Notes: generated from the letters alone by a model not told the origin. Positions 1-55,208 are shown, counted from the first letter of the stretch. The stretch: 55,208 nucleotides of DNA from Deinococcales bacterium (GCA_013298595.1 JAAFIG010000024.1:1-55208), one strand, 5' to 3'. Numbers and translations are program-made.

Positions 1-117
1 TGGTTGACTCGTTGTCGGCGTTTAACGAGGGACTTTGAGGGTTTGCCGAGTACCACGGAATCTTGGGCTTATTTGGCAAATATTCAGTTGATTTTGAGGA
101 GACTCGACCCTTTATAA
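1..117 (+). CDS. IS5-like transposase, C-terminal end only (cut by window edge)
   Basis: Frame 1 is open from the first base to a TAA at 115-117 and reads W-L-T-R-C-R-R-L-T-R-D-F-E, then ...WAYLANIQLILRRL. The order Trp-Leu-x-Arg-x-Arg-Arg-Leu, then Asp-(Phe/Tyr)-Glu, then a hydrophobic helix is typical of the extreme C-terminus of IS5-family DDE transposases, just after the catalytic Glu segment. Only 38 codons lie in the window, so completeness cannot be judged. The right inverted repeat of the element should lie shortly after the stop; I could not define it. The only transposase sequence seen in this window. Confidence 0.6.
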   Translation, partial: WLTRCRRLTRDFEGLPSTTESWAYLANIQLILRRLDPL

Positions 118-316
118 ACACGCTCTAAGAAGTATCTAACTTGACCTCTCGATCAAAAGTGGATTAACTATATGTTAAGAATAGTCGTAATTTGAGTAGC
201 TAACAAATACTCCTATTTTTATAACCACTTCATAACCTCGAGTTCGTTATCCTATGCCATCGCATCAGACCACATTGCAAAATGTGCCTCGAGAACATGC
301 GAAATAGGAGATTATC
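118..316. other. Intergenic stretch after the transposase end
   Basis: About 200 bases without a convincing gene. It should contain the right end of the insertion sequence, whose boundary I cannot place, and the promoter of the WD40 gene. A possible -35-like TTGACC lies at 141-146, but no well spaced -10 follows. Two CTCGAG copies (237-242 and 288-293) lie here. AGGAG at 306-310 is the ribosome binding site of the next gene. Confidence 0.4.
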
Positions 317-1273
317 ATGTCAAAACGAATTGTTGTAGCAGTAAGTGGTTTGGCAATACTGGGCATTGCCTTTGGACAAGGAACAGGCTTTGATGCTAAG
401 AAAGCCACAGAAATTCTCGAGTTGATTGGTCCTGATTCACCTATTCTCGATATGGTTTTTAGTGCCGATGGTAAGCGTTTAGTCGTGGCAGCCGACGACC
501 CTGTTGGACGAGTTTGGGATGTTTCTAATGGGCGTGTGTCTATGCAGCTCACAGGACATCAAAATGGTATTTCAGGTGTGACTTATAACACTGATAACAA
601 GACGTTAATTACTTTGGGTTCAGATGGATATTTAAAAACGTGGGATGCAGTTTCGGGTAAAGCAAACTCGAGTTATAACCTGAAATGCAACGGTAGCCAC
701 GGTGATGTTGTTGCCTTAAAAGATAACCGAGTGGTAGCGGCTTGTGCTGGTTTAAAAATGGTGGCTTTGCAAAATGGTAAAATTATGGGTTCGTTTAAGA
801 ATGCGCCTTTGGTGTATAAGTTAGCACTTTCGCCCGATCAGCAAACTGTTTTTGGCAGCGTTGGTTATCCAGAATTTACCATGTGGGATACCAAGAGTTT
901 TGATTCCTTTAGACAATTAAAAGGTCATGCTTCACAAGGTTTTGCTGTTTCGTATAGTGCTGATGGTAAATTCGTGGCAACGGGTGCATCTGATAATACG
1001 GCTCGTATTTGGAATGCTGCAACAGGTAAAGAAATCCGCGTTTTAAAAGGGCATGATAATAGTGTGGCAGATGTGGCATTTAGTCCGAACAGCAAAATTT
1101 TAGCTACAGCATCTGCGGATTTAACCGTTAAACTCTGGGATGTTGCTACGGGCGAAGAAATTATTACGCTCGAGGGGCATAAAGAATACATTCGTCAACT
1201 TGCTTGGAGTAAGGATGGCAAATTCCTTGCTAGTGGCGACGAGGGCGGCATTATCAAACTTTGGGGTAACTGA
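317..1273 (+). CDS. Secreted WD40-repeat beta-propeller protein
   Basis: 318 aa. Residues 1-20 form a signal peptide (basic Lys-Arg, then a hydrophobic core ending Ala-Phe-Gly-Gln). The rest is about seven WD40 blades: most end in a Trp-Asp-like strand (RVWD, KTWD, TMWD, RIWN, KLWD, KLWG) and several have the preceding Gly-His, as in LKGH and LEGH. One blade near residues 110-145 is degenerate and lacks the WD signature. Seven blades make a closed propeller, a protein-interaction platform, so the binding partner rather than a reaction defines the role, and this is unknown. Start ATG at 317 has AGGAG six bases upstream. The next gene, also secreted, follows 35 bases later and may be co-transcribed. 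Confidence 0.85.
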   Translation: MSKRIVVAVSGLAILGIAFGQGTGFDAKKATEILELIGPDSPILDMVFSADGKRLVVAADDPVGRVWDVSNGRVSMQLTGHQNGISGVTYNTDNKTLITLGSDGYLKTWDAVSGKANSSYNLKCNGSHGDVVALKDNRVVAACAGLKMVALQNGKIMGSFKNAPLVYKLALSPDQQTVFGSVGYPEFTMWDTKSFDSFRQLKGHASQGFAVSYSADGKFVATGASDNTARIWNAATGKEIRVLKGHDNSVADVAFSPNSKILATASADLTVKLWDVATGEEIITLEGHKEYIRQLAWSKDGKFLASGDEGGIIKLWGN

Positions 1274-1308
1274 CTTTCTTTCAAAGGATTTTGTTAAAAG
1301 AGGTGAGA

Positions 1309-1833
1309 ATGAAAGCCGTATCTCGAGCGTATTTGATGATGGTGCTGTTGCTGAGTGCAGCGTTAGCGCAAAGTAGTCTTGGCAGTTTTCAATATGTCAA
1401 ACAGACCGACCCACTGAACGATGCTGAACGCAGTTATATTCTGACCACAGAAAGCCGAAATGCACAACGGGCTGCACAGTTGCAATTTCGTTGTCAAGAA
1501 AATAATCGCAGTAAACAAACAGATTTGTATGTTGTCTTAAAACACAACCTCAAACTCCCAGCGTATTACTCGAGTTATGGCAGGGTGTTTTGGCAGTACC
1601 GTTTTGATAGTAAAACTGCGTCGGCAGAGTGGACATCGTATTTTTCTCGAGATCAATCTCTGATTTACTTAACCGATGATGCTCGAGCCAGTTTTATCGA
1701 ACAAGCCAAAGTTTCTCAGCGTTTAGTTGTGGTGATTACGGGTGATGAAATAGACGCACAAACGTACCAGTTTAATCTCGAGAAATTCTCTGAGGCATTG
1801 GCTAAACTCAAATGTAAAGTACAGCCTCAGTAA
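1309..1833 (+). CDS. Small secreted protein of unknown function
   Basis: 174 aa. I chose ATG 1309, not the upstream TTG at 1291, because AGAGGTGAG directly precedes it and the protein then begins with a clean signal peptide (MKAVSRAYLMMVLLLSAALAQ). The mature part has a pattern of spaced Asp, Trp and two Cys: an Asp-Pro...Asp segment near the start, Arg-Cys in the middle, an RFD...W...S block, and a C-terminal Leu-x-Cys. This loosely resembles the VasI/EvfG type of secreted domain, but that is a weak impression only. The two cysteines could form a disulfide. It may be co-transcribed with the WD40 gene. Convergent with the methyltransferase gene, 13 bases between stops. Confidence 0.6.
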   Translation: MKAVSRAYLMMVLLLSAALAQSSLGSFQYVKQTDPLNDAERSYILTTESRNAQRAAQLQFRCQENNRSKQTDLYVVLKHNLKLPAYYSSYGRVFWQYRFDSKTASAEWTSYFSRDQSLIYLTDDARASFIEQAKVSQRLVVVITGDEIDAQTYQFNLEKFSEALAKLKCKVQPQ

Positions 1834-1836
1834 TAC

Positions 1837-1865
1837 TGTGCTCGGGTTATGAAAGCTCGAGCACA
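1837..1865. terminator. Possible bidirectional hairpin between convergent genes
   Basis: TGTGCTCG (1837-1844) and CGAGCACA (1858-1865) form an 8-bp perfect stem with a 13-base loop. It lies just after the stop of the small secreted protein gene and covers the last codons of the convergent methyltransferase gene. There is no strong T-run on either side, so it is a weak terminator candidate. The right arm also contains a CTCGAG copy. Confidence 0.3.
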
Positions 1866-3085
1866 CTAAACACTTCGACATGGCTGGTTTGTGGATAAAA
1901 ATCCCAAGGTTGTACAGTTGTCAGTTTATAACCCGCTCGAGTCAGTTTGCCTATATCCCTTGCCCAAGTTGCTGGGTCGCAAGAGACATAAATAATTTTT
2001 GGCGCTCGAGCCACTACAACAGCCTCAAGTACATCTTTGGATAAACCTGCCCGAGGTGGGTCTAAGGCGATACAATCAGTAAAGATGCCTTCAAGTCTCG
2101 AGGCATCACCGCGTTTAAATTGCAGATTGGCTAACCCTAAGCGTTTGGCATCTGATTCGCCTCGAGTCACAGCTTCTGGGGATATTTCGATAACGGTAAC
2201 TTGCTCGAATTGTTTGCTTAAATGAAACCCAAGTGTGCCGCTGCCACCGTATAAATCTATGGCACTTTTGCCACTGCCCGCAGCTTGAGCTACAGCTTGG
2301 TATAATTCTGAGGCTGCTAATGGATTGACTTGAGCAAAACTCGAGGCGGTTACAGACATGGCATAATCACCGTATTGCTCGAGAATAGATTCTTGCCCCC
2401 AAAGTTGTTCGATACCAGCTCGGAAGCGCCCTTCAAGTGAAGCAAAGGCGTAACTAATACCTGCTACGCCAAGTTCTTTGAGGTGATACACCGCTTTTTT
2501 ATAAGCAGCGGGTTCGCTTTTACCAATCAGACATGCCAGAACATCGCCAGTGGCAAAACTGCCGCGCAACGCAATTTCAAGGCTAGGCTCGAGTTTTGCT
2601 GTGTTGATATCGCCTAAGCCCTCGGATACAGCTTCCAGTAACAATGGGTCGTTGCTCAGTAACCATGCCCGGTGTGTGTTGGGTTGCCGATACCCAACAC
2701 CACCAGGTGTGACCATATACTGTGCACCATTGCGGTAACGCCATTCGAGCGGACTGGGTTTGGTGGGTAATACCTCAGCTTCGACTTTGGCAATACGCTC
2801 GAGTGATTCTGAAACAAAACCTTGCTTAAATTCGAGTTGGGCAGCGTAACTGGCATGGGCTAAATCGGCAGTAGGTGGCGTGCCACGTTTGGGTTGCACT
2901 CGAGTTTCGGCAGGTTGAATGACTCGTACCAGTGTTCCCTCGAGTGCACCTCGTTTTTTGCGAAGTTCCACTTCGACCAACTCGCTGGGTAATGCCCCTG
3001 CAACCAGTACCACACCGCTTTCAGTTCGAGCTAAGCCCAAACCACCTGCCACCATTTTTTCGATTCGCACGCGAACAAGATTCAT
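1847..3085 (-). CDS. rRNA/tRNA uracil-5-methyltransferase, RlmD/TrmA family
   Basis: 412 aa. N-terminal TRAM RNA-binding domain (about residues 1-55), then the class I SAM methyltransferase fold: SAM motif [10 protein letters not shown] (277-286), DPPRAG (342-347), and the nucleophilic Cys369 in SCDP. The family makes 5-methyluridine in rRNA or tRNA. The region around residues 68-82, where RlmD carries the cysteines of its iron-sulfur cluster, has no cysteine here ([14 protein letters not shown]), so this member should lack the cluster. I therefore do not choose between rlmC, rlmD and trmA. It starts 5 bases after the stop of the quinone oxidoreductase gene, so the two likely form one transcript. 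Confidence 0.85.
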
Positions 3086-3090
3086 TACGC

Positions 3091-4056
3091 TTAGTTTAAG
3101 GCAATAGATAACAGCACTTTGCCTTTGGTTTGTCGGGCTTCGATATACGCATGTGCTGCTGCCACTTCCGATAATGGGAAAACCTTGTCAATCTCGAGTT
3201 TAAGTTGCCCAGAAGCCAGCCAGTCAAATAACTCTGTGGTGCGCCACTCGAGTTCGTCCCGTTCAGCAATGTAATGCCCTAAACTTGGACGGGTCACAAA
3301 TAAACTGCCTTTCGCACTGAGCACTTGTAAATCTAGCGGGTCTACTTGACCACTCGAGCCACCATACAAAACCATCATGCCTCTGGGTTTGAGTAAATCT
3401 AAACCTTTGGTAAACGTATCCTTACCAACTGAATCGTAAATTACCTCAAGACCATCGGGCGCAAGTTCCTTGGTTTTGGCAGCAAAATCTTGTTGAGTAT
3501 AAATAATCACTTCGTCTGCACCGAGTGCTTTGACAATCTCAGCTTTTTCGGAGTTACCAACAGTGGCAATTACCCTTGCCCCAAAACGCTTGGCAATTTG
3601 TACCAATAACTGCCCAACGCCACCCGCTGCCGCATGAATAAGTGCTGTATCACCAGCCTCGAGTTTATAGGTACTTAATGCCAAGTAATGCGCTGTCATA
3701 CCTTGCAGCATCACAGCAGCGGCTGTTTGGCTCGAGATACGCCGAGGAATTTTAACCAAGTTTTTGGCTGGCACAACAGCAAATTCAGCATAACTGCCTC
3801 GAGTCATGGTGTATGCTACGCGTTGCCCAAGCTCGAAATCTGTTACGCCATCACCAACAGCATCCACAACACCAGCACCTTCCATACCCAAGGTAAACGG
3901 CATTGGTACGTTATAGACACCACTGCGTTGATAAATATCAATGTAATTTAAACCCGAGAACTCGAGTTTAACCCGAACTTCACCAGCGGCAGGGGAGGGC
4001 ATTGGAATTTCCTCGAGCTGCATTTGATTGATTGCAGAAACACGAATGGCTTTCAT
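3091..4056 (-). CDS. NADPH:quinone oxidoreductase, zinc-independent MDR family
   Basis: 321 aa from ATG 4056 ([13 protein letters not shown]). Longer in-frame starts exist at 4065 and 4113 but would only add a non-conserved tail. It has the GroES-like N-terminal domain ([14 protein letters not shown], the quinone oxidoreductase signature region) and a Rossmann domain with [10 protein letters not shown] near residues 147-156 for NADPH. Zinc ligands of alcohol dehydrogenases are absent, as expected for the QOR branch. It probably reduces quinones or enones in the cytoplasm. GATAAT lies 7 bases upstream of ATG 4056, suggesting a leaderless start. First gene of a two-gene unit with the methyltransferase. 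Confidence 0.85.
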
Positions 4057-4141
4057 GCAAAGCATTATCGGTGTTCTTGGGGTGCGGATGTTGTGCTGAA
4101 AATAACACGCCACTTTGCGTATTGAGATTACTCAAGCCTCC

Positions 4142-4693
4142 ATGCACAATAAGGTTATGGAAAAACTGATTCAAGAATTACTCGAGCAGGCAGTTCTTGA
4201 TGGTCAGTTATTAGGTCAGAGATTTGCACAAATGCCACTTCGTGAAATTCTGGCTGTCCGCACCCATACCCTCGAGACAAACACGTTTTCTAATCTTGTA
4301 GATGGATTATTACGAGGCTGCATTCATCCCGAACCTCGAGTTCGTTTTGATTGTGCGATGGCACTTGACCACATGGCAGATGAACGCAGCACCCCTATGC
4401 TAAAAAAACTGATGCAAGACCCCGTTCCTCGAGTCCGCCGAGCGGCTATTCATGCCATTTCTTGTGATGCTTGTAAAATCTCGAGCTTATTCAACCGAGA
4501 TGATTTAATCCCCGATTTAATACAAATTGCACTCGGGGATGCTAATACCAAAGTGCGTTTTGCTGCGATTCATGCCCTGACCAAAACATGCACTGATGCT
4601 CGAGCTAAACCTGTTTTTGAACTGGCTTTGACTATGAAAATAGATGCGGTGTTCAGGAAAAACATCACTCGAGCGCTGGAAAATTTAGTATAA
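4142..4693 (+). CDS. HEAT-repeat protein
   Basis: 183 aa from ATG 4142. ATG 4157 (MEKLIQELLEQ) is an equally likely start and TTG 4115 is possible; no site has a clear ribosome binding site. From about residue 50 it has tandem HEAT/PBS-lyase-like repeats, recognisable by the Pro-x-Val-Arg-x-x-(Ala/Cys)-Ala pattern: PEPRVRFDCAMAL, PVPRVRRAAIHAI, ANTKVRFAAIHAL. Such alpha-solenoids act as scaffolds or as partners of modifying enzymes. No catalytic residues are visible and the target is unknown. Cytoplasmic, no signal peptide. It is followed by the PadR operator; a separate terminator is not evident. Confidence 0.65.
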   Translation: MHNKVMEKLIQELLEQAVLDGQLLGQRFAQMPLREILAVRTHTLETNTFSNLVDGLLRGCIHPEPRVRFDCAMALDHMADERSTPMLKKLMQDPVPRVRRAAIHAISCDACKISSLFNRDDLIPDLIQIALGDANTKVRFAAIHALTKTCTDARAKPVFELALTMKIDAVFRKNITRALENLV

Positions 4694-4696
4694 ACT

Positions 4697-4734
4697 TATA
4701 CCTCAGATTGCAATGCCTCGAAATCTGAGGTATA
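4697..4734. promoter_or_regulatory. Perfect 13-bp inverted repeat, likely PadR operator
   Basis: TATACCTCAGATT (4697-4709) and AATCTGAGGTATA (4722-4734) are perfect inverted arms with a 12-base spacer. The right arm runs into the -10 box of the padR-like gene (TATACT, 4731-4736) and the left arm covers the first bases of the -35 (TTGCAA, 4708-4713). A repressor bound here would block RNA polymerase, and PadR proteins commonly repress their own promoters. It could instead act as a terminator hairpin of the HEAT-repeat gene, but there is no T-run. Confidence 0.7.
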
Positions 4735-4736
4735 CT
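4708..4736 (+). promoter_or_regulatory. Sigma-70 promoter of the padR-like gene, leaderless
   Basis: TTGCAA (4708-4713), 17-base spacer, TATACT (4731-4736). The ATG starts 6 bases after the -10, so transcription should begin at or next to the start codon. A CTCGAG copy (4735-4740) overlaps the end of the -10. This is the clearest full promoter in the window. Confidence 0.75.
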
Positions 4737-4742
4737 CGAGCT

Positions 4743-5057
4743 ATGAACCTCAAAGGTAGCCTTTCAACCTTGATTTTGCAAATCCTCAGTTACGACATGA
4801 GTCACGGCTACGACATTGCCCAGCGCATCAAACGCCAATCCGAAGGTGTCCTCGATTTCAAGGATGGCACCCTTTACCCAACCCTGCATTTGCTCGAGCG
4901 AGACGGTTTTCTAACTTCCGATGAAATAACCGAGAATGGCAGAGTGCGGCGGTATTACAAAATAACTGAAAAAGGTTTAAAAGAATTGGCTTCGCAAAAA
5001 AATACGTGGCAGAAAATGTCAGGAGCAATTAACACCATTCTCGAGGGAGCAAGATAA
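4743..5057 (+). CDS. PadR-family transcriptional regulator
   Basis: 104 aa. Winged-helix domain typical of PadR: LILQILSYDMSHGYDIAQRI, then the wing segment GTLYPTLHLLERDGFL and RRYYKITEKGLKEL. It is short, lacking the long C-terminal dimer helix of large PadR members, which fits the PadR-s1 subgroup. Start ATG 4743 is preferred over the upstream in-frame start at 4713 because TATACT sits exactly 6 bases ahead. The stop overlaps the next gene by one base (TAATG), so the two are translationally coupled. It probably represses this two-gene unit through the inverted repeat at 4697-4734. The inducer is unknown. Confidence 0.9.
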   Translation: MNLKGSLSTLILQILSYDMSHGYDIAQRIKRQSEGVLDFKDGTLYPTLHLLERDGFLTSDEITENGRVRRYYKITEKGLKELASQKNTWQKMSGAINTILEGAR

Positions 5058-5737
5058 TGTGGTTTCAGAAAAAATCTGAACCAAAAAATCTCGAGGAATG
5101 GCTCGAGATTGCAACAAAAGGAATTGTGCCGCTCGAGGCTGAGGCAATTGCGAGAGAAATTAGAAGCCATTACCAAGACGAACTCGAATTTCAAATGAGT
5201 TATGGGAAAACACAGTTGGAATCTGAAAGAATTGCATTACTAGATTTAGGGGATTCCAATAAAGCAAAGCAAAAATTCTACGAAAGCCATATCACTGTAT
5301 ATGAATTGGAAAACTTAAAGGATTCAAAAGCGGATCTTTTCTTCGAGATATTTTGCTCACTTATAGTTTTGTACTCAATATTTTATGGTTTTCAATGGCA
5401 ACTGTTTGTGTTTTATAAAGTTTTCATCGAAATGATTTCAAAGCAAGTTAAGGTATATTTTCTTAAAAATAACCAGCCACTTAGAGCGTTGCAATTCACT
5501 CAGAGGATTAATTTTTTCTGCTATCCGTTAGCGATTATTTTTGCTGTGCAAGGACTTTTCATTTTTAAAGATTTTTATACCTTTCAGTTTTACTTTTTTG
5601 TTTTTCTAATTGTGGTTACCGTTTTTGATACTGTTGTATCTATCAGAAAGCAAAACGAGAAAATTTGGAAATTTAAACGCTATTTTTCAGAGTATGCTTT
5701 ACGCAGTTACTCGGTTAATTGGAAGTCAAAAAGTTAG
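5057..5737 (+). CDS. PadR-linked membrane protein of unknown function
   Basis: 226 aa. Residues 1-90 are soluble and charged, with a pattern (LEEWLEIATKGI...IAREIRSHYQDEL...ALLDLGD) like the helical prefix found on PadR-linked permeases and DUF1700-type proteins. Residues about 95-125 and 150-200 are strongly hydrophobic and aromatic, giving about three membrane segments. The start overlaps the padR stop (TAATG). Base composition is more AT-rich than the neighbours, and CTCGAG is absent from 5138 to 5762 after being present in the first 27 codons, so most of the gene looks unlike its surroundings. A PadR plus membrane protein pair usually means a stress-responsive membrane function; nothing more specific can be said. 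Confidence 0.7.
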   Translation: MWFQKKSEPKNLEEWLEIATKGIVPLEAEAIAREIRSHYQDELEFQMSYGKTQLESERIALLDLGDSNKAKQKFYESHITVYELENLKDSKADLFFEIFCSLIVLYSIFYGFQWQLFVFYKVFIEMISKQVKVYFLKNNQPLRALQFTQRINFFCYPLAIIFAVQGLFIFKDFYTFQFYFFVFLIVVTVFDTVVSIRKQNEKIWKFKRYFSEYALRSYSVNWKSKS

Positions 5738-5822
5738 TGGGAATCTTCAAGTTTTGATGAAGCTCGAGCTATCTGCCATTTTGCTAGTTGACTCGAGCCG
5801 CAAAACACGCGAAACTGTAAGT

Positions 5823-6239
5823 ATGACCAAGACTGAAACGTATATGGCATGGCTCACCGAACAAGGGTATCGCCCAGAACTTGATAACGATCAAGATATT
5901 GCTTTTAAGCATGAACGTATTAACTTTGTGCTTTTTGCAAACGAGAAAGATGAAACTTTTTTTCGTTTGATGGTGCCGTTTTTCTGGGAACTCGAGACCG
6001 AAGAAGAAACTCAGAAAGCTACTCAGGTTATCATGAAACTCAATACCGATTATAAAGCAGCTAAGTTTTATATCATGCAGAACGATGTTTGTGTGGCAAT
6101 AGAGAATTTCTATGGTAAAATTGAGGATGTTTTTCCTGTGCTAGGGCGGCAAATTGATTTGCTTGCCAGTGCAATGCGGGAATTTCGGCAGACCATGCGT
6201 GAAGAAGCAGCTCCTAAACCACCAATGGCACAAGCATAA
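5823..6239 (+). CDS. YbjN-domain protein
   Basis: 138 aa from ATG 5823 (MTKTETYMAWLTEQGY). A longer frame reaching back to 5610 overlaps the preceding gene and is not conserved-looking. The sequence fits the YbjN/type III chaperone-like fold: an N-terminal helix, a strand-rich block (IAFKHERINFVLFANEKDETFFRLMVPFFW), a helix of Glu-Lys-Thr residues, and NTDYKAAKFYI...VCVAIENF. YbjN proteins are cytoplasmic and act as small adaptor or chaperone-like folds; the partner is unknown. The C-terminus is a short Ala/Pro tail. No clear ribosome binding site. Confidence 0.7.
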   Translation: MTKTETYMAWLTEQGYRPELDNDQDIAFKHERINFVLFANEKDETFFRLMVPFFWELETEEETQKATQVIMKLNTDYKAAKFYIMQNDVCVAIENFYGKIEDVFPVLGRQIDLLASAMREFRQTMREEAAPKPPMAQA

Positions 6240-6452
6240 GTGTTTACTGGCTCGAGCTTTTGCTTTAATATTTGTTGGCTACGCCATTCAGACATTGCAG
6301 GTTCAGCTGTTTTTAGGGTAATTTGTTTGTAACGCTCAAGAATTGGCTTGGGTGTTTTGGTTTTTTGTTCTTGTAAAGGATTTTACTGCATGACACGTTT
6401 GCGCTAATCACCAAAGGGTAATTCGTTTTTCACCTTTTCTTTGGAGGTTCGC

Positions 6453-8054
6453 GTGAGCTTAGTTTTGCGTGCAGCGTGTAAGCGCTTTGCAGATATTCTT
6501 ATTTTTGATGATGTTACCCTCGAGGTTCATGCGGGTGATCGTGTGGCTTTGTTGGGGCGTAATGGTAGTGGTAAAACCACATTATTGAAGGTTCTGGCTG
6601 GTTTGGAATTCTTAGATGCGGGTTCGTGTAGTGTTACTGGTCGTGTCGCGTATTTGGCTCAACGCGATTCGCTCGAGGCTGGTTTGTTACGCGATGTGGT
6701 ACTGCCTGATGCCTTAAAAGTGCTCAGAGCTAAACTCGAGTTGGCACAAGCTGCCCTTGAGCAGCCTACACCAGAAAATCTTGAGCGGTACGCACTTCTC
6801 GAGGAGGAATTTCGGGTAGCTGGTGGATACGATCTCGAGGTTCGAGCTGAGGAAATTCTGGCTGGGTTGGGTTTAGATGGTTCGCGCTCGAGTCTGGCTT
6901 TGTCGGGTGGGCAAGAACGGCGGGCTTTACTGGCGCGGTTACTGATTCAACCTGCCGATTTTTACTTGCTGGATGAACCGACCAATCACTTGGATTTAGA
7001 GAGTTTAGCTTGGCTCGAGCACTGGATTTTAGCTCAGGATGCTGGTTTTATCATTGTTTCGCACGATAGAGCTTTTTTGGATGTCACAGTGCAACGTTGT
7101 TACGAACTCGAGCGGCAAAAGGTGACAGCGTATTTTGGTAATTTTACGGAGGCAATGGCATTGAAAAAAGCCTTACGGGAAAATCAACTCGAGGCATTTG
7201 TGGCGCATCAACGCAAAGTTAAACAATTGTATCTTGAGCAGCAAGCTGCTATTGCCCAAGCTTCGAGAAGCGAAAATAAGCATCGTATGGGCAATCGAGA
7301 CGCAACCACTGCCAGCCATTTGATGAATCGGGCTTCGCATAAGCAAGGACGGCGTGCTTTGGCTTTAGAAAAACGTATTGAGCACATGGGTGAACTTGAG
7401 AAACCTTTTGAAGATTCGTTTTTGACAAAAATCCAACTGGGTCAAGTGCCTGTTGGCGCGTCAGAAGTCTTAAAACTCGAGGATTTAACTGTGCAGCGTG
7501 GCGAGAATCTGATTCTCGAGAAACTTAATTTGTTTGTGCGGCGCGGTGAACGGGTGGCACTTATTGGTACTAATGGTAGTGGCAAAAGCAGTTTAATCAA
7601 AACGGTCCTTGGGCAACTCGAGCCAGCTTCAGGCAATGTTATTCTGGGGCAAAATGTGTCTGTTTACTGGGCAGCTCAAAACACCGAGGAACTCAATCAG
7701 TACGGCACACTCGAGGATGCTTTACTCTCGGCAAATGCAAATTTGCAAACCAAAGAAGTTTATGCCTTACTTGCCAGTCTGGGCTTACCCAAAGAACCTT
7801 CTCGAGCAATTACCACGTTATCTGGTGGTCAACGGACTCGTTTGACACTGGCTCGGTTATCTGTCACTCGAGCTTCGTTGCTGATTCTGGACGAACCAAC
7901 CAATAATTTGGATACCGATGCGATTGTAGCGCTCGAGAAATTGTTGCTTGGGTATACTGGAACAGTGTTGTTTGCTTCGCATGACCGACGTTTACTTGAG
8001 GTTGTGGCGACTCGGCGCATTTTGCTGCAAGATAAGCAACTTCTCGAGAATTAA
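6453..8054 (+). CDS. ABC-F family ATPase (ribosome-associated, EttA/Uup type)
   Basis: 533 aa, two ABC domains in one chain and no membrane segments, the hallmark of ABC-F. Domain 1 has GRNGSGKTTL, signature LSGGQERRALL and Walker B YLLDEPTNHLDL. Domain 2 has GTNGSGKSSL, LSGGQRTRL and LILDEPTNNLD. Between them, about residues 245-310, is a charged linker (P-site tRNA interaction motif region) rich in Arg, Lys and Gln. The family acts on ribosomes, in translation control or antibiotic protection. GTG 6453 is chosen because GGAGG (6443-6447) lies five bases upstream; TTG 6441 would place that site inside the gene. Which ABC-F subfamily cannot be decided here. Confidence 0.9.
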   Translation: MSLVLRAACKRFADILIFDDVTLEVHAGDRVALLGRNGSGKTTLLKVLAGLEFLDAGSCSVTGRVAYLAQRDSLEAGLLRDVVLPDALKVLRAKLELAQAALEQPTPENLERYALLEEEFRVAGGYDLEVRAEEILAGLGLDGSRSSLALSGGQERRALLARLLIQPADFYLLDEPTNHLDLESLAWLEHWILAQDAGFIIVSHDRAFLDVTVQRCYELERQKVTAYFGNFTEAMALKKALRENQLEAFVAHQRKVKQLYLEQQAAIAQASRSENKHRMGNRDATTASHLMNRASHKQGRRALALEKRIEHMGELEKPFEDSFLTKIQLGQVPVGASEVLKLEDLTVQRGENLILEKLNLFVRRGERVALIGTNGSGKSSLIKTVLGQLEPASGNVILGQNVSVYWAAQNTEELNQYGTLEDALLSANANLQTKEVYALLASLGLPKEPSRAITTLSGGQRTRLTLARLSVTRASLLILDEPTNNLDTDAIVALEKLLLGYTGTVLFASHDRRLLEVVATRRILLQDKQLLEN

Positions 8055-8065
8055 TGCAGGTCGTG

Positions 8066-8071
8066 TATGAT
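8066..8071 (+). promoter_or_regulatory. Leaderless -10 box, secreted FG-GAP-like gene
   Basis: TATGAT ends 6 bases before ATG 8078. No ribosome binding site is present and the protein N-terminus at that ATG is a signal peptide. Confidence 0.6.
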
Positions 8072-8077
8072 TTTGTT

Positions 8078-8923
8078 ATGAAAAAATTACTGCCATTGTT
8101 ACTGGTTATGGGGATGGGTGTGGCGGCTGCGCCCAGTGGAGCTGTGTTTTTGATTGGCTTTCCCTCTAACGAGCCTGGGGATAGTACTGATTTTGAAGTA
8201 TTAGGTGGTTTTCAGAATCAAAAATGGCAGAGTAGTAAAAGTGCCGAAGTCAAAGACAAAGATGTTTATGCCTTATGGAGTTTAGCGGGTAAAACCAAAG
8301 CAACGGCTGTGGGAGAAACCAAAAAATCGTATGAAGAACCTTGCCCAGATACGTATAGTGTGAAATTATTGCCATTGCCAAAACGCATAAGTTGGCTGGT
8401 TGCCACAAATGCCTCGTGGAATTTGCATCCTCGAGCAGTGACACGTTTACCTAACTCCAATGCCACTTATCAAAAAGTGGTCAAGGATTTCCTCGAGCAA
8501 GCTGGACTAAAAAACCCTGTAATTAAAATAAGTACGATTATCAAAACCGATTTAGATAACGATAAACAAGATGAGATTATTGTTGCCGCCACGAATGTTA
8601 ATCGTGTGACATATTTTCCAGATAGTGCGGCTCGAGCAGGAGATTACAGTGTTTTATTGGTTAGGAAAGTCATTGCAGGCAAAGTACAAACCCTTGTGCT
8701 TGGACAAGAAGTGCATTTAAAAGGCACCACAGAAGCTGATGTCACAGCTGGAACACAAAACAATCCAGATGTCTGGGATGTGGTGAATGTGCTTGATCTG
8801 AACGGCGATGGCAAACTCGAGATTCTGTTTTTTAATGCGATTTACGAAGATTATGCTGTTTCGGCAGTTGAATGGAATGGACAAAAATTTGTTGAACGCT
8901 TAATCAGTGGTTGTGGTGCCTAA
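8078..8923 (+). CDS. Secreted protein with FG-GAP/EF-hand-like Asp motifs
   Basis: 281 aa. ATG 8078 gives a clean signal peptide (MKKLLPLLLVMGMGVAAA); the in-frame ATG 8054, overlapping the ABC-F stop, would add eight residues in front of it. The mature protein has two calcium-site-like loops, DLDNDKQDEI (about residue 165) and DLNGDGKLEI (about residue 242), as in FG-GAP/VCBS repeat proteins, which bind calcium in extracellular beta-propellers. With only two such loops this is a partial or divergent propeller. Function unknown. The leaderless promoter at 8066 suggests it is transcribed independently of the ABC-F gene. Confidence 0.7.
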   Translation: MKKLLPLLLVMGMGVAAAPSGAVFLIGFPSNEPGDSTDFEVLGGFQNQKWQSSKSAEVKDKDVYALWSLAGKTKATAVGETKKSYEEPCPDTYSVKLLPLPKRISWLVATNASWNLHPRAVTRLPNSNATYQKVVKDFLEQAGLKNPVIKISTIIKTDLDNDKQDEIIVAATNVNRVTYFPDSAARAGDYSVLLVRKVIAGKVQTLVLGQEVHLKGTTEADVTAGTQNNPDVWDVVNVLDLNGDGKLEILFFNAIYEDYAVSAVEWNGQKFVERLISGCGA

Positions 8924-8967
8924 GGTTTTTTGGGTGTTTGGGTTGTTTTGACCTTTGTGCTTTACGT

Positions 8968-8973
8968 TAGACT
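8968..8973 (+). promoter_or_regulatory. Leaderless -10 box of the ccm operon
   Basis: TAGACT ends 7 bases before GTG 8981 of ccmA. A TTGACC lies at 8948-8953, with a short 14-base spacer. This would be the main promoter of the cytochrome c maturation operon. Confidence 0.6.
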
Positions 8974-8980
8974 ATCGACT

Positions 8981-9622
8981 GTGAACGCGTTGTCTTTGCA
9001 AGGTTTGGTACATCGGTATCAGCGTTCATATGTGCTACGAGGCACAAGTTTAGAATTACCAAGCAACGAGATTCTGGCATTGTATGGCTCGAATGGCGCG
9101 GGTAAAACCACGTTGCTTAAAATCATTGCCTCAAGTTTAGTGCCAACCCGAGGCAAGGGAGAGGTACTTGGTTTTGACTTAGCCAATCGTCTCGAGATTC
9201 GTAAACGAGTGCTGATTGTTTCGCATAGCCTTGGATTTTACCCCGATTTAACAGGCAAAGAAAATCTCGAGTTTGCTCTAAAAATGCACGGTAAAACTGG
9301 TAATATTGCTGCTGCGCTCGAGCAAGTTGGTTTAGCAACCGAAAACCGAGTGCGTGGTTTTTCAAGTGGTATGCGTAAACGTTTAGCTTTGGCTAAAATG
9401 GTCTTACTCGAGCCGACCTTAATCTTATTAGACGAACCTTTTGCTGCCCTAGACCCTGAAGGTAAAAACCTTGTCGAAAACATTATCCTCGAGCAGAAAA
9501 AACGTGGAGCTACTCTCATTATTACTTCTCATGAACCTGAACGAACCAATAAAATTGCTACTTTAACAGTCAATCTCGAGCATGGTGAAATCTCTAAACC
9601 TATTGTCCCCGAGGTTGCCTGA
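8981..9622 (+). CDS. ccmA: Cytochrome c maturation ABC ATPase CcmA
   Basis: 213 aa. ABC ATPase with Walker A GSNGAGKTTL (about residues 32-41), signature FSSGMRKRLALAK and Walker B LILLDEPFAALDPEG. CcmA drives the CcmABCD complex that releases holo-CcmE loaded with heme. GTG 8981 is chosen because TAGACT sits 7 bases ahead; the in-frame start at 8930 would add 17 hydrophobic residues not expected in CcmA. The position directly before ccmB, ccmC, ccmD and ccmE supports the assignment over a generic ABC ATPase. First gene of the operon. Confidence 0.93.
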   Translation: MNALSLQGLVHRYQRSYVLRGTSLELPSNEILALYGSNGAGKTTLLKIIASSLVPTRGKGEVLGFDLANRLEIRKRVLIVSHSLGFYPDLTGKENLEFALKMHGKTGNIAAALEQVGLATENRVRGFSSGMRKRLALAKMVLLEPTLILLDEPFAALDPEGKNLVENIILEQKKRGATLIITSHEPERTNKIATLTVNLEHGEISKPIVPEVA

Positions 9623-9695
9623 TGAACCACGCCAAAAACAAATTCCTAACGATTGTCTTTTTTCCTTCCTTTTACCTTCTTTCTTCGGAGTCTCG

Positions 9696-10370
9696 ATGAA
9701 CCCGTGGCATATCATTTGGGCAATCGCTGTCAAAGATTGGCGTGTCGAGGGTCGTGCTCGAGATGTGTTGGCAGCTACTTTGTTTTTTGCGGTTTTGGTA
9801 GTCACCATTCTGGCATTTGCCTTTGGTCCTGAAAGTGCAAAATTACGGGAAGCTGCCCCGGGAATTCTTTGGGTAGCTATTGCTTTTGCTAGTATTTTAG
9901 CGGCATCTCGAGCTTTTGCTGCCGAATCCGAAGATGGTGCCCTCGAGGCATTGTTATTGTACCCTGTTCCACACGAACTTATTTATTTGGGTAAGCTTCT
10001 TGGCAATCTTGGTTTGATGTTGCTAATAGCTGTTGTGATTACACCTTTTACCCTGATTATTTATGGAGTGGACATTTCAGGACGTGAATTACCTTTTGGG
10101 CTAGCTGTTTTGCTGGGTGTGACAGGTTTTAGTATTGTCTCGAGTTTTCAAAGTGCTTTAACCATTAATCTGCGCTCGAGAGAGAGTTTACTGCCTGTTT
10201 TAATCTTTCCTGTGGTAGTTCCTGTAATTATTGCCAGTGTCAAAGCTACAGTGGGCATTATTACCAAAGACCCCAGTATTGACGTGCAAAGTTGGTTGCA
10301 GTTGTTGCTGGGCTTTAATTTAGTGTATTTGGTGGTTTGTACTCTAGCGTTTCCGTATGCAGTCGAGTAG
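9696..10370 (+). CDS. ccmB: Heme exporter permease CcmB
   Basis: 224 aa, six predicted membrane helices, length typical of CcmB. Family features include a cytoplasmic KDWRVEGRAR segment near the N-terminus, AFAAESEDGALEALLLYP (about residues 70-90), and LINLRSRESLLPVLIFPVVVP-like text in the second half. ATG 9696 has CGGAG five bases upstream; the long upstream frame from 9582 overlaps ccmA and is not real. With CcmA it forms the ABC part of the heme handling complex in the cytoplasmic membrane. Confidence 0.93.
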   Translation: MNPWHIIWAIAVKDWRVEGRARDVLAATLFFAVLVVTILAFAFGPESAKLREAAPGILWVAIAFASILAASRAFAAESEDGALEALLLYPVPHELIYLGKLLGNLGLMLLIAVVITPFTLIIYGVDISGRELPFGLAVLLGVTGFSIVSSFQSALTINLRSRESLLPVLIFPVVVPVIIASVKATVGIITKDPSIDVQSWLQLLLGFNLVYLVVCTLAFPYAVE

Positions 10371-12391: not shown

Positions 12392-14353
12392 ATGAGTTGG
12401 TTAGGTGAATCTGCGGTTTTAATTGCATTAATCTTTTGTGTGTTTGGCGCTGTAACTGCGTGGCGAGCTGGGCAAACATTGGATGCACGGCTCGAGTTAG
12501 TGGCACGGCGCACAGCAGGTATCACTTGGTTGTTCTCGAGCCTAGGTATGGCGGTGTTATGGGTGGCATTGCTGCAAAACGATACTTCGGTGCGTTATGT
12601 AGCAAACCATAGTGTCAGTACTAGCCCTTTATGGGTCAAAATTGTCAGTTTATGGGGTGCGCTCGAGGGTAGTATTTTGCTTTGGGCTTGGATTTTAGCT
12701 GGTTTTGTTGCCTTGCTGGCTTGGGTTGCAAAACCTGATATTTTGCGTCCTTATGCCTTGGCAGTGATGTTTTTTGTTTTGGCTTTTTTTCTCGGGGTCA
12801 ATGCCAGTGTGGGTAGCCCATTTATCGAAGTGCCAATTCCTCCTCCTGATGGTCGTGGTCCAAATGCGTTACTGCAAAACCATTGGATGATGGCGGTGCA
12901 TCCGATGCTGATGTACATTGGTGTGGTTGGATTGAGTGTGCCTTTTGCGTATGCAATGGCAGCCTTATTAACAGGTCAGGTTGGTGAGACTTGGTTACAA
13001 CAGACGCGTCGTTGGACAGTAACAGCCTGGATTTTTTTATCCGCCGCTATTATTTCGGGTGGTTGGTGGAGTTATGAAGTGCTTGGTTGGGGCGGTTACT
13101 GGGCATGGGATCCAGTTGAAAATGCCAGTATTATACCTTGGTTTTTTGCAACTGCTTTTTTACATAGTCTACAAATCCAAGAACGTCGCCGTATGCTGGT
13201 TGGCTGGAATTTAGGGCTAATTGTGGCAGCCTTTACCAGCACCTTATTGGGCACTTTTTTAACCCGCAGTGGCATTGTGCAAAGCGTTCATGCTTTTGCG
13301 GCGGGTGCAATAGGACCTGTGTTCTTTGGATTTTTAGTAGTAACCATCGTTTTAGTACTTGGTATCGCTTATCAAAAACTGCATCTGATTCGTGATGAAC
13401 ACCAACTTGATAGCCCAGCATCTCGAGAAGGTGCGTTTTTAATGGGCAATTTATTATTCTCGAGTTTTGCTGCAACAGTGCTGATTGGTACGTTATTCCC
13501 AGTTTTTGTTGAAGCTTTTACAGGGGCGAAATCCTCGGTTGGAGCGCCTTTTTTTAATGCAGTTGGTGTGCCGTTGGGCTTAGCTATTTTGGCATTACAA
13601 GCAATTGGTCCAGCTTTGTCGTGGCGACGTGCCACAGGAGATAGCTTGCGCCAAAGTCTGACAGTGCCAGCCATACTCGCAGTCATCATGGCAGTGGTTG
13701 GTTTTGTCTTGGGTGCTCGAGAGTGGTCTGTGGTTTTAACAGTGTTGTTTGCATTTTTTAATATTTTTGTGATGGTGCGTTTGACCGATAAAGCCATTCT
13801 TGCGCGGCAAAAAGCTGTTGGGCAATCGTGGTTAGCAGCTATCGGCGATTTGGTCAATGCTTTTCCACGTCGGTATGGGGCATATATTGCACATTTTGGG
13901 GTGCTGGTTGTGAGTTTAGGCATTGCTTTTAGTGGTGCTTATAAATCCGAACAAGAACTGAGTTTTAAAATTGGACAAAGCCATATGGTGCAAGGGCATG
14001 AAATTACCTATTTACGTTTGGTTGGTGAAGAAAAACCAGAACGTATTGTGCAAGCTGCCGAGATTCTTCTTGATGGCGAGAGTTTCTTTCCTGCCCAAAA
14101 TCAGTATAAAACGCAGCAGATGAATGTCGCTACACCCGCTGTGCAATACAACTTCCTTGGCGATTTTTACGTGATTTTTCTTGAGTCTGATGCCAAGGGC
14201 ACACAAGTCTCACTGAAATTTATTAATAGTCCACTGGTTTCTTGGATTTGGTTTGGTGGTTTAATCATCATTATTGGTGCGGGTTTAACCCTGATTCCAG
14301 CGGTTCAAATCCAAAGCTCGAGAAACAAAACCGAATTTGTTGCAGCTGATTAA
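12392..14353 (+). CDS. ccmF: Heme lyase CcmF
   Basis: 653 aa, about 14-15 membrane helices. It has the WWD heme-binding motif in GWGGYWAWDPVENASIIPW (about residues 231-249) and the flanking conserved His residues, for example in QNHWMMAVHPMLMYIG. CcmF ligates heme from CcmE to apocytochrome CxxCH thiols with CcmG and CcmH. GAGG lies upstream of ATG 12392. CTCGAG is missing from 12668 to 13421, the stretch encoding the most conserved helices. Confidence 0.95.
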   Translation: MSWLGESAVLIALIFCVFGAVTAWRAGQTLDARLELVARRTAGITWLFSSLGMAVLWVALLQNDTSVRYVANHSVSTSPLWVKIVSLWGALEGSILLWAWILAGFVALLAWVAKPDILRPYALAVMFFVLAFFLGVNASVGSPFIEVPIPPPDGRGPNALLQNHWMMAVHPMLMYIGVVGLSVPFAYAMAALLTGQVGETWLQQTRRWTVTAWIFLSAAIISGGWWSYEVLGWGGYWAWDPVENASIIPWFFATAFLHSLQIQERRRMLVGWNLGLIVAAFTSTLLGTFLTRSGIVQSVHAFAAGAIGPVFFGFLVVTIVLVLGIAYQKLHLIRDEHQLDSPASREGAFLMGNLLFSSFAATVLIGTLFPVFVEAFTGAKSSVGAPFFNAVGVPLGLAILALQAIGPALSWRRATGDSLRQSLTVPAILAVIMAVVGFVLGAREWSVVLTVLFAFFNIFVMVRLTDKAILARQKAVGQSWLAAIGDLVNAFPRRYGAYIAHFGVLVVSLGIAFSGAYKSEQELSFKIGQSHMVQGHEITYLRLVGEEKPERIVQAAEILLDGESFFPAQNQYKTQQMNVATPAVQYNFLGDFYVIFLESDAKGTQVSLKFINSPLVSWIWFGGLIIIIGAGLTLIPAVQIQSSRNKTEFVAAD

Positions 14354-26107: not shown

Positions 26108-26168
26108 AGTGTTAACCAACGTTCTTAAATTTCCTCGAGAATGCTTTTGAATTTTGCTTTGGCTAGTT

Positions 26169-26188
26169 AGGCGAGGCAAGCCCCGCCT
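26169..26188. repeat. Dispersed palindromic repeat, copy e
   Basis: AGGCGAGGCAAGCCCCGCCT, followed by CTACGGTT, the same outer flank as copy g. Confidence 0.7.
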
Positions 26189-26205
26189 CTACGGTTTATT
26201 TTGGG

Positions 26206-33914: not shown

Positions 33915-33941
33915 ACGTTGACAAGTCCAATCCTGTCATGA
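33902..33941 (+). repeat. 27-bp direct duplication of the fmt/queG junction
   Basis: AATCCTGTCATGA occurs at 33902-33914 and again at 33929-33941. The first copy contains the fmt stop and queG ATG 33911; the second contains an in-frame ATG 33938. The offset is 27 bases, nine codons. Confidence 0.85.
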
Positions 33942-35095
33942 TCCAAACCGTAGGGGCGGGGCTTGCCTCGCCCAACAAAGCCGATGCCCTGAAAAATGCT
34001 GCGCTCGAGCTTGGTTTCGACGCTGCCGAATGGGTCAGTGCAGCTGTACCAACTTCCGATGTGCAAGGTTTCTCGAGTTGGTTAGATGCTGGTCATCAGG
34101 CTGGTATGGATTATCTCGAAAAAAGTGTTTCAAGACGGGCTGATGTCAGAACCACTTTCGCACTTGCACAGTCTGCTTTGGTGTTGCTCGTTTCGCATAA
34201 TCATGTTGCTCCTGAAAAACCAAGTGGTGGTACTCGAGTTGGGCGTGTGGCTCGGTATGCTTGGAGTTTTGATTATCACACGGTTTTAAAACCTGTGTTG
34301 CAAAAACTCGAGGCTGTGGCAGCTGATTTAGGCATCCAAGCCAAAGCTTGTGTAGATCATGCGCCGATTCTTGAACGTGGTTTTGCGGCTCGAGCAGGTA
34401 TTGGTTGGCAAGGTCGCTCGAGTCAGTTAATTCATACAAAACTTGGGGCGTTGACAACATTGGCAGTTTTGTTAACAGACGCTGAGCCACCTGAAATCCT
34501 CGAGCCGCATGCAGATCGTTGTGGGAAGTGTGTGGCTTGTGTAACTGCTTGCCCAACTGATGCGATTTTGCCGAATCGAATTGTGGATTCTAGGCGCTGC
34601 ATCGCTTATTACACTGTCGAGCATCGCGGAGCTGTGCCACTCGAGTTACGCGCAAAATTTGGCGATCATCTTTTTGGTTGTGATGATTGCCTTGATATTT
34701 GCCCTTGGACAACGCATGCTGGCAAATTCTCAAAGCTGCTCGAGCCAATTCCAGAGTTGGTCTATCCAAATCTCGAGCCGTGGTTTTTAGAATCTGGAAC
34801 ATGGTTTGAAAAGCATTTCACCAACACTGCTTTCTCGAGGGCACGCCGTAAAGGTATGGCGCGAAATGCAGCGATTGTGCTGGGGAATCTGCGAGACGAA
34901 AATCATTTGTGGTTGCTTGGACAAGGCTTAACAGATATTGGCTGGGAGGTGCGAGAAGCTTGTGCTTGGGCACTTGGTTGTTTTGCCACACCAACGGCTT
35001 TGAATTTCCTCGAGCGAGCCAGAACGGACTTGGATGCTCGAGTGCAAACCACTGTTATTCGGGCTTTAAAACTCGAGTTTGCTCAGGTGACATAA
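33911..35095 (+). CDS. queG: Epoxyqueuosine reductase QueG
   Basis: 394 aa from ATG 33911. Has the cobalamin-binding N-terminal region, then two [4Fe-4S] cluster motifs, CGKCVACVTACPTDAI and CDDCLDICPW, and C-terminal HEAT-like helices (ARVQTTVIRALKL). It does the last step of queuosine synthesis in tRNA. The first 20 codons are odd: a duplicated junction gives two starts (33911, 33938), and a copy of the dispersed palindrome (33950-33973) is translated as VGAGLASPNKA before family similarity starts (about LKNAALELGFDAAEW). Confidence 0.93.
   Translation: MNVDKSNPVMIQTVGAGLASPNKADALKNAALELGFDAAEWVSAAVPTSDVQGFSSWLDAGHQAGMDYLEKSVSRRADVRTTFALAQSALVLLVSHNHVAPEKPSGGTRVGRVARYAWSFDYHTVLKPVLQKLEAVAADLGIQAKACVDHAPILERGFAARAGIGWQGRSSQLIHTKLGALTTLAVLLTDAEPPEILEPHADRCGKCVACVTACPTDAILPNRIVDSRRCIAYYTVEHRGAVPLELRAKFGDHLFGCDDCLDICPWTTHAGKFSKLLEPIPELVYPNLEPWFLESGTWFEKHFTNTAFSRARRKGMARNAAIVLGNLRDENHLWLLGQGLTDIGWEVREACAWALGCFATPTALNFLERARTDLDARVQTTVIRALKLEFAQVT
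33950..33973. repeat. Dispersed palindromic repeat, copy h, inside queG
   Basis: GTAGGGGCGGGG, centre CTTG, CCTCGCCC, followed by AACAAAG. It lies within the N-terminal coding part of queG. Confidence 0.75.
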
Positions 35096-35555: not shown

Positions 35556-35679
35556 ACAGTGGCTCCTAAGTAGATTTTAGATTTTTCAAATAGCGGCAAA
35601 TCTGTCCTTGCTTGTGGAAATAGCACTACTCGTGTTCATTTCAGCAGTGGATACGCTGTCCTGACTCCTGCTAATCGCA

Positions 35680-35710
35680 AAATGTTTTAGGTGTTTTTCC
35701 TAAAACATTT
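35680..35710 (-). terminator. Hairpin terminator of the HAD phosphatase gene
   Basis: AAATGTTTTAGG (35680-35691) and CCTAAAACATTT (35699-35710) form a 12-bp perfect stem with a 7-base loop. It sits 11 bases after the HAD stop on the minus strand, ending in TTTTGC. Confidence 0.7.
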
Positions 35711-35721
35711 CGGGGAAGTCC

Positions 35722-52587: not shown

Positions 52588-52593
52588 ATTATA
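52588..52593 (-). promoter_or_regulatory. Leaderless -10 box of tandem paralogue 1
   Basis: Perfect TATAAT on the minus strand, 6 bases before ATG 52581. Confidence 0.7.
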
Positions 52594-53183: not shown

Positions 53184-53218
53184 TTAACCTACTTTACTTC
53201 ATGGATTTCATAGCAGTG

Positions 53219-53794: not shown

Positions 53795-54492
53795 GGGTTC
53801 CATAAGAGTGGTACTCGAGATTCAAAAGCTTCGGCGTATTGCACACCAGCAAATGTTCCCCAGTACATTAAACGGGCTTTGCGTCGCTCGAGAATTTCTG
53901 GACTGACAGTTTCTGAGACTTTTTCACCACTAAATTGGCTGTGATGCGCCATGATAGCGGCTTGCCATTGCTCGAGCACTTCGGATACATCCACGAGCAC
54001 ATTGGCGTTGATTGGAGCATTGCCTTGATAATAAAGCACCCGTGTAACTTTATGTGGTGCGCCCTCGAGTTTGGCTTTGCGAAGACTCGCAAAATGCAGT
54101 GCCGAGGTGCATAACTCGGCTGCGCCTGTATGGTCTGGGTGACGATCTGTTTGGTGTGGTAGCAAAATGGTTTCTGGACGCGTATCACGGATGGCTTGGG
54201 CGACTTTTAAGCGGTACTCGAGTGAATCTTGTAATGTGCCATCAGGTAATTGCAAGTTGCCTCGGTAGGTTAATCCTATAATTTTTGCAGCAGTCATGGC
54301 TTCAGCGTCTCGAGTTTCCGGTGTGCCTAGGGTGCCCATTTCACCTCGAGTTAATTCCAGAACCCCAACGTGCTGACCAGTTTTAGCTGCTTTAATCAGT
54401 GTGCCGCCACAACCAATTTCGGCATCATCTGGATGGGGGGCTATGGCAAGAATATGCAGTGGCTCGAGTGAACCATAGATAAGGTGCGACAT
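53791..54492 (-). CDS. bshB1: LmbE/PIG-L deacetylase, probably BshB1
   Basis: 233 aa. Zinc motif AIAPHPDDAEIGCGG (His and two Asp), then ELTRGEMGTLGTPETR and the second His in RHPDHTGA. LmbE proteins of this form deacetylate GlcNAc-malate in bacillithiol synthesis, a pathway known in Deinococcus, or act on mycothiol-type substrates in other lineages. bshA and bshC are not in this window. The plsY stop overlaps its ATG by one base (TAATG). Confidence 0.85.
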   Translation of the reverse strand: MSHLIYGSLEPLHILAIAPHPDDAEIGCGGTLIKAAKTGQHVGVLELTRGEMGTLGTPETRDAEAMTAAKIIGLTYRGNLQLPDGTLQDSLEYRLKVAQAIRDTRPETILLPHQTDRHPDHTGAAELCTSALHFASLRKAKLEGAPHKVTRVLYYQGNAPINANVLVDVSEVLEQWQAAIMAHHSQFSGEKVSETVSPEILERRKARLMYWGTFAGVQYAEAFESRVPLLWNP

Positions 54493-55145
54493 TATTCGGC
54501 TTTCGGTTCAGGTTCAGTGACAGGTTTAGCCGTATCACTTGGGACAGGTGTTGTGTTTTTTTGATTAAATTGGCGTTCATTACCAGCGGCTAGGCGTTGT
54601 AGATTATCGCGGTGACGAAACATAATCAGCGTAAAAATCAGTGCCATCATCAGCACTTCCCACCAAGTGCGTTGCATGGCAATAGCAAGAATAATTGAAC
54701 AAAAAGAAGTAATCATGCTGCCTGCACTCGAGAACCGAGTAATTGCGACAACAGCGATAAAAATGGGTAGTAAGGCTAAGCCAAGCCCGATGTCTGAAAA
54801 GGCAATTACGCCGTAACTGGTGGCAACGCCTTTGCCACCTTTGAATGCCAAGAAAATACTGTAATTATGTCCAACAATGGCAAAGAAACCAACCAAAGCA
54901 ATTTCCCAGTCGGGCATTCCTAAAGCTCGAGCAATCAGCATTGGCACGCCGCCTTTAAGAATATCGGCAAGGGCAACCACCACGCCTGCGCTCCAACCAG
55001 CGGCACGTAACACATTCGTTGCGCCAGTGTTACCACTGCCAACTTTTTGAATGTCTACTTGGTATGTGCGTGCAACCAGCACGCCAAACGGAATTGCTCC
55101 GAAAATATATGCGACCACCGCTACCCACAAGATGTTCAGGTTCAC
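54492..55145 (-). CDS. plsY: Glycerol-3-phosphate acyltransferase PlsY
   Basis: 217 aa, five predicted membrane helices and three conserved motifs: GSGNTGATNVLR (motif 1), HNYSIFLAFKGGKGVATSYG (motif 2, with the GGKGVAT core), and motif 3 near FRHRDNLQRL. It uses acyl-phosphate for phospholipid synthesis. GTG 55145 is chosen because TATGAT ends 7 bases ahead; ATG 55157 lies within that box. C-terminal tail is rich in Pro, Thr and Glu (PVPSDTAKPVTEPEPKAE). Confidence 0.94.
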   Translation of the reverse strand: MNLNILWVAVVAYIFGAIPFGVLVARTYQVDIQKVGSGNTGATNVLRAAGWSAGVVVALADILKGGVPMLIARALGMPDWEIALVGFFAIVGHNYSIFLAFKGGKGVATSYGVIAFSDIGLGLALLPIFIAVVAITRFSSAGSMITSFCSIILAIAMQRTWWEVLMMALIFTLIMFRHRDNLQRLAAGNERQFNQKNTTPVPSDTAKPVTEPEPKAE

Positions 55146-55152
55146 GTTTTCT

Positions 55153-55158
55153 ATCATA
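55153..55158 (-). promoter_or_regulatory. Leaderless -10 box of plsY
   Basis: TATGAT on the minus strand, 7 bases before GTG 55145. Start region of the plsY-bshB1-paralogue 3 unit. Confidence 0.5.
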
Positions 55159-55208
55159 CGCCTAAGCTGTGAAGGCAGTGTGACTCGAGCCATGTAAGTA
55201 TCTCTGAA

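Follow-up and report, generated by a model that had tools for sequence, protein, structure and literature searches.

CTCGAG lies near saturation throughout the genome of an uncultured member of the Deinococcota and may be the site of a sequence-specific protein

What could cause a single six-letter palindrome to fill a bacterial genome, inside genes and between them alike? The question is raised by a stretch of 55,208 nucleotides from a Deinococcales bacterium (GCA_013298595.1 JAAFIG010000024.1:1-55208; hereafter the window, meaning the whole stretch that was analysed), in which the sequence CTCGAG occurs 380 times, 34 times the number expected from base composition (mononucleotide expectation). 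The window is contig C17 of an assembly of 4.58 Mb in 68 contigs (G000), and the original prediction, made from the window alone, had described CTCGAG as a highly iterated palindrome across it. This description extends to the entire genome, which contains 27,159 copies (5.9 per kb, about one per 170 bases and ~30 times the base-composition expectation), while GAGCTC, the same letters reversed, reaches 15 copies in the whole 4.58 Mb. The sites in the window are distributed as follows:

1..55208, no strand: 380 CTCGAG sites in an array with a mean gap of 145 bp, the widest being 760 bp
1..10000, no strand: 76 CTCGAG sites, by direct count
33001..35000, no strand: 22 CTCGAG sites, by direct count
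12662..13422, no strand: largest gap between sites, 760 bp, within a CcmF/NrfE-like gene at 12392-14353

The 76 and 22 copies counted by eye in the original prediction were both exact, and its statement that genes on either strand, every codon phase and the gaps all contain sites is borne out by 210 sites in plus-strand genes and 122 in minus-strand genes, together 191, 85 and 56 in the three codon phases, and by 48 outside long open reading frames (ORFs).

Ranking of hexamer palindromes in a 455-kb sample of this genome (L021-L040 plus the window) identified CTCGAG as the only strongly enriched one, at 30.6 times the base-composition expectation and with a mean gap of 165 bp; the next, TTGCAA, stood at 2.4 times and all others were at or below 2.5 times. 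The maximum-order Markov model gave an observed-to-expected ratio of merely 1.19, and this test is uninformative here because CTCGA and TCGAG lie nearly always within CTCGAG (2720 of the 3031 CTCGA 5-mers in the sample). When the sites were masked and the expectation was built from trinucleotides, 45.7 copies were expected against 3192 observed. Among control sequences from 79 loci of unrelated bacteria and archaea most were near expectation, with a few GC-rich ones reaching ~8-fold. In the 455-kb sample GAGCTC, TTCGAA, GACGTC, CCGCGG, AGGCCT, CGGCCG and GGGCCC had zero copies and GGCC had 10, ~1% of expectation, a wide avoidance of palindromes other than CTCGAG that suggests heavy past restriction.

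The use of available positions was examined in a 541-kb sample (ORFs of at least 150 amino acids), with bias measured as the log odds relative to codon usage. The density of CTCGAG was 6.0 per kb within ORFs and 5.5 per kb outside them. CTC-GAG spelled 69% of the 2,176 Leu-Glu dipeptides, where background codon usage predicts ~1.5%, and in the other phases 65% of [SPTA]-Arg-[VADEG] and 38% of x-Ser-[Ser/Arg] opportunities were used. Taking the three phases in turn, the bias was 4.8, 3.8 and 3.9; noncoding DNA gave 3.5-3.9, and values in the other genomes of the window's family and in G003 lay between 2.9 and 4.6. Since the bias is similar in every context, the force acts on DNA and is independent of translation. 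Occupancy of Leu-Glu per gene was near binomial (p = 0.69); some genes of low occupancy resemble recent arrivals, one of them, with 32% G+C and no site, adjoining a methyltransferase gene.

This force has left its mark on proteins. The observed-to-expected ratio of Leu-Glu was 2.2-2.5 in the family genomes and G003 (2.35 in the window's genome), that of Glu-Leu being 0.9-1.1 (0.97), so that Leu-Glu/Glu-Leu reached 2.1-2.5, against 0.88 and 1.10 in two control sets and 0.76 in Deinococcus radiodurans plus G004. Likewise, [PTA]R[VADEG] was 1.64 times its reverse in the window's genome. This composition indicates that CTCGAG has altered amino acids as well as codons. Thermus (L193, L212) has a Leu-Glu/Glu-Leu ratio of 1.56 though CTCGAG is unfavoured there, and other leucine pairs are skewed too; this skew may reflect composition or a remnant of a lost bias.

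The motif is exactly six base pairs long, its flanks having no marked preference, although palindromic octamers around it are somewhat avoided, most strongly CCTCGAGG (0.33 of expectation). Examination of one-step neighbours showed that the three transition products alone are enriched, ~2-fold overall and 3.3-3.6-fold in Leu-Glu codings, while transversion neighbours are not enriched and no precursor is depleted; the pattern is that of ordinary decay by transitions, the opposite of directed conversion of near-matches. The first and third positions of the motif, both cytosines, decay equally, hence a single 5-methylcytosine hot spot is not indicated, and decayed copies lay no closer to intact sites than did the remaining non-site forms.

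Sites interfere with one another at short range. The use of Leu-Glu opportunities was 26% at less than 12 bp from another site, 53% at 20-30 bp and ~80% at 75-200 bp. With occupancy shuffled inside the same gene and class, the ratios of observed to expected pairs were 0.30 (6-12 bp), 0.50 (12-20 bp), 0.73 (20-30 bp) and 0.84 (30-40 bp), and ~1 beyond; the three other family genomes showed the same trend under ~25 bp. Avoidance of hairpins was considered as the source of this exclusion and rejected, since genes show no depletion of other 6-nt inverted repeats at these distances. Comparison with G005, from the same family, in which leucine codons outside sites are 32% identical, showed that 61 of 74 Leu-Glu sites of the window's genome aligned to Leu-Glu were also CTCGAG there, and that occupancy in G005 was 55% at positions where the window's genome has no site. 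These two figures together point to retention plus independent regain.

The bacterium is uncultured and related to Thermus and Meiothermus. The sole close named match of the window's CTP synthase was a contig of a Thermaceae metagenome-assembled genome (66% identity), and because the listed relatives include a genome (G030) with DNA 92% identical to part of a Meiothermus taiwanensis plasmid, the original prediction was right in naming Deinococcota as the host lineage. Four genomes of the window's family (f1: G000, G005, G006 and G007) were compared, the compared genomes being 91-94% complete (G002, 58%), and all four, together with two of the sister genus, showed the same pattern, which was fainter in Meiothermus-type genomes and G096 and missing from Thermus. 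Counts per genome were 5.9-7.7 sites per kb in the family and in genus g5, 3.6 in G001, mostly 1.3-3.4 in Meiothermus-type genomes, ~0.8 in Thermus-type genomes and 0.3 in G004, which belongs to the same family as g5. The Leu-Glu log odds in sampled sequences ranged from 3.9 (G096) and 2.4 (G033) through 1.4 (Meiothermus-type replicons) to -0.6 (Thermus) and -1.7 (D. radiodurans MP1 plasmid DNA plus G004). The force is therefore graded across the lineage, and was lost or never acquired in some relatives. In D. radiodurans MP1 (L213) and G004 (L072) CTCGAG spells 2% of Leu-Glu against 13% expected from codon usage, as if the site were avoided there. Among named replicons the bias is present in plasmids of M. 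taiwanensis and Allomeiothermus silvanus.

What these data require is a fixation bias that acts on DNA with a strength of ~4 units per site, is specific for the exact 6-mer and shows interference only below ~40 bp. The explanation that we favour, tentatively and in the knowledge that it falls somewhat short of probable, is that CTCGAG is kept near saturation by a per-site fixation bias and is read by a sequence-specific protein. A translation-independent fixation bias with a scaled strength of about 3.5-4.8 would suffice to hold the motif near saturation, every exact copy being weakly favoured; copies would be lost through ordinary transitions and then regained, and a second copy within ~30-40 bp would add little benefit. 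CTCGAG would most likely be bound or recognised by a putative reader that is abundant, strictly specific for the sequence and has a footprint of ~30 bp, for example a protein that organises the chromosome or a DNA-binding protein of the restriction-enzyme-like kind that has been domesticated. We infer that selection, rather than drive, underlies the bias and that the site is read by a protein bound to it; the best fit to the data would be a strict dimeric reader with this footprint, acting on bare or modified DNA. The original prediction had listed nucleoid organisation, mismatch-repair signalling and uptake in gene transfer among possible causes. The first, a role in DNA organisation, is the best match to the scale of the spacing, whereas functions acting on the kilobase scale, such as the other two, are disfavoured because saturation would be expected at a far lower density, and they do not predict sites as dense as one per ~170 bp that exclude each other only at less than ~40 bp.

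Several observations weigh against this explanation. Drive, through biased uptake or gene conversion, would mimic selection in these data. The enrichment of neighbours departs from a simple reversible equilibrium between mutation and selection. There are several methyltransferases per genome, and a different one may methylate CTCGAG in each. Exclusion is weak between genes, where pairs at 12-50 bp stand at 0.89 of expectation, perhaps because terminator-like hairpins pair two sites there. Several intergenic pairs of CTCGAG in the window's genome resemble the arms of such hairpins, for example at L030:6628 and L024:625.

Among the alternatives to a bound reader, methylation of the type proposed for the highly iterated palindromes (HIPs) of cyanobacteria survives best, though we consider it unlikely. 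An orphan methyltransferase would modify CTCGAG and sites would accumulate because the methylated form serves in mismatch repair, in the timing of replication or in some other way, as in the model of Elhai for cyanobacteria. HIP1 (GCGATCGC) and the alternate HIPs were surveyed by Elhai in 2015, who reported that each genome with a HIP has a cognate methyltransferase (PMC4390886). A strict, flank-free palindrome of 6 bp is also typical of restriction-modification enzymes, and an orphan CTCGAG methyltransferase has been reported in Nocardia, with a proposed non-restriction role and sites clustering beside dnaA (Blow 2016, PMC4752239). We sought methyltransferases of five Pfam families (PF07669, PF00145, PF01555, PF02384 and PF02086) in the enriched genomes, a portion of the matches being fetched and compared, and within these comparisons no enzyme common to the four family genomes was found. 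The original prediction was apt in likening the form of the array to HIP1, one palindrome throughout the genome in genes and gaps, and its suggestion of an orphan methyltransferase as the cause finds no support in these comparisons. The equal decay of the two cytosines speaks against a 5-methylcytosine hot spot.

The six methyltransferases of these families in the window's genome were restriction-modification or defence modules, singletons or weak matches. One belongs to a DISARM-like module:

L058:2629-9224 (G000 C9): DrmD-type helicase followed by a 1241-aa methyltransferase

The enzyme of contig C11 is part of a restriction-modification-like pair, which has a counterpart on a Klebsiella plasmid. 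That of C15, a C5 methyltransferase with orthologues in G005 and G003, probably recognises CCGG rather than CTCGAG, because its closest annotated plasmid relative overlaps an annotated HpaII-family restriction endonuclease and CCGG is avoided. That of C66 is a singleton, D12-class enzymes are mostly unrelated between genomes and the match in the window's genome is weak, and there is in addition a CcrM-like methyltransferase gene.

XhoI-type enzymes are scattered and unrelated to CTCGAG enrichment. XhoI-family endonucleases (PF04555) are intact in G012, G013 and G014 only, where the genes (L199, L200 and L201) adjoin a ~340-aa PF01555-type methyltransferase, and broken in G108 (L011/L202), beside a 583-aa PF07669-type enzyme. 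The G108 methyltransferase has homologues of full or nearly full length in seven further genomes (40-53%) and in G007 (27%). In favour of methylation, XhoI-type methyltransferase homologues without a detected XhoI partner are present in seven genomes (G024, G025, G026, G030, G039, G043 and G072). On the other hand, PF04555 was not found in the four family genomes, G001, G002 (58% complete) or G003, no XhoI-type methyltransferase was found in G000, G005, G006 or G003 at 91-94% completeness, and the carriers of intact endonucleases have fewer CTCGAG sites than their sister genomes. The XhoI/PaeR7I restriction-modification systems share the target, and intact endonucleases of the XhoI family are found within the phylum. 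The Nocardia system has the same recognition sequence, although CTCGAG there clusters by dnaA and here fills the genome, no shared enzyme being found.

Molecular drive, in which DNA bearing CTCGAG would be preferentially taken up or recombined and would spread without benefit to the cell, in the manner of the DNA uptake sequences (DUS) of Neisseria and the uptake signal sequences (USS) of Haemophilus, appears improbable. Thermus and Deinococcus are naturally transformable, and drive would affect genes and gaps alike and could prevail over weak protein constraint, as observed; to our knowledge, no uptake bias has been described for these bacteria. CTCGAG resembles USS and DUS in being a short, very high-copy motif in genes and gaps, with some copies in intergenic hairpins, but differs in being palindromic, 6 bp long and without extended or flanking consensus, at ~6 rather than ~1 per kb. 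Known uptake sequences lie ~1 kb apart (USS, PMC7811141), there being little gain beyond one per fragment, whereas here the mean gap is 165 bp, 70-80% of opportunities are used and interference extends only to ~40 bp.

We give a low probability, lower than that of drive, to a mutational bias, in which repair or modification would turn near-matches into CTCGAG or the site would be unusually resistant to mutation. It would explain the equal force in genes and gaps and make a protein reader unnecessary. Directed conversion should nevertheless deplete one-step precursors, whose transition forms are instead 2- to 3.6-fold up, a bias of context alone would not yield short-range exclusion, and amino acid replacements have been carried along genome-wide; the site-creating bias offered in the original prediction is therefore disfavoured. 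A preference for the codons or the codon pair CTC-GAG, or compositional chance, has practically no prospect of being the cause. Phase 0 is indeed the commonest (1507 of 2623), but density and bias are equal in other phases and in noncoding DNA, CTC (8%) and GAG (19%) are otherwise minor codons, and the bias is slight or absent in control genomes.

Placing CTCGAG among known systems, we find it closest to HIP1 and its alternates: it is an extreme outlier among palindromes in coding and noncoding DNA and is conserved in its lineage with exceptions (about 6-8 per kb in f1 and g5, 0.3 in G004), some members having lost it. It differs from HIP1 in phylum, in sequence and in density, 5.9 per kb against about 0.3-2.7, and no cognate methyltransferase common to its carriers was found in the five families compared. 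With 67% G+C it falls below the at least 75% of the HIPs that replace HIP1 (PMC4390886), and it is set apart from HIP1 by its exact 6-bp core and by what was measured here, namely saturation, a shift of the proteome and exclusion within 30-40 bp. The literature searched, with most subscription journals outside its coverage, held no earlier report of iterated CTCGAG in Deinococcota, in agreement with the original prediction, which knew of no named case. In a bolder proposal, rather unlikely in our judgement, CTCGAG would act across the genome as an anchor code for a protein of architectural or domesticated restriction-like type, a HIP needing no methyltransferase, with a benefit per site sufficient to rewrite ~70% of Leu-Glu opportunities and to double Leu-Glu dipeptides in the proteome.

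The function of HIP1 has been a standing question since the 1990s, and the case described here arose independently in a different phylum and exceeds in density every HIP1 genome surveyed by Elhai (PMC4390886). Because its strength is graded across relatives, some of them named species with the motif on plasmids (M. taiwanensis and A. silvanus) and others without it, the question can be addressed both by comparison and by experiment. A DNA motif of 6 bp that reshapes proteins throughout a genome also bears on the reading of codon usage, dipeptide composition and the ratio of nonsynonymous to synonymous substitution rates (dN/dS).

Viral sequences were also considered. No phage match was found for the A. 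silvanus plasmid stretch, and viral contigs with three close sites mostly reflected GC-rich codon usage or repeats, with no clear phage of these hosts among them. Four viral contigs (L307, L290 (IMGVR_UViG_3300018422_000001), L228 and L333) are rich in CTCGAG and have zero GAGCTC. Finally, the window contains short dispersed repeats resembling repetitive extragenic palindromes at ~26156-26198, 27444, 33941-33988 and 35637-35726, with many copies in G005 and fewer in G006 and G007.

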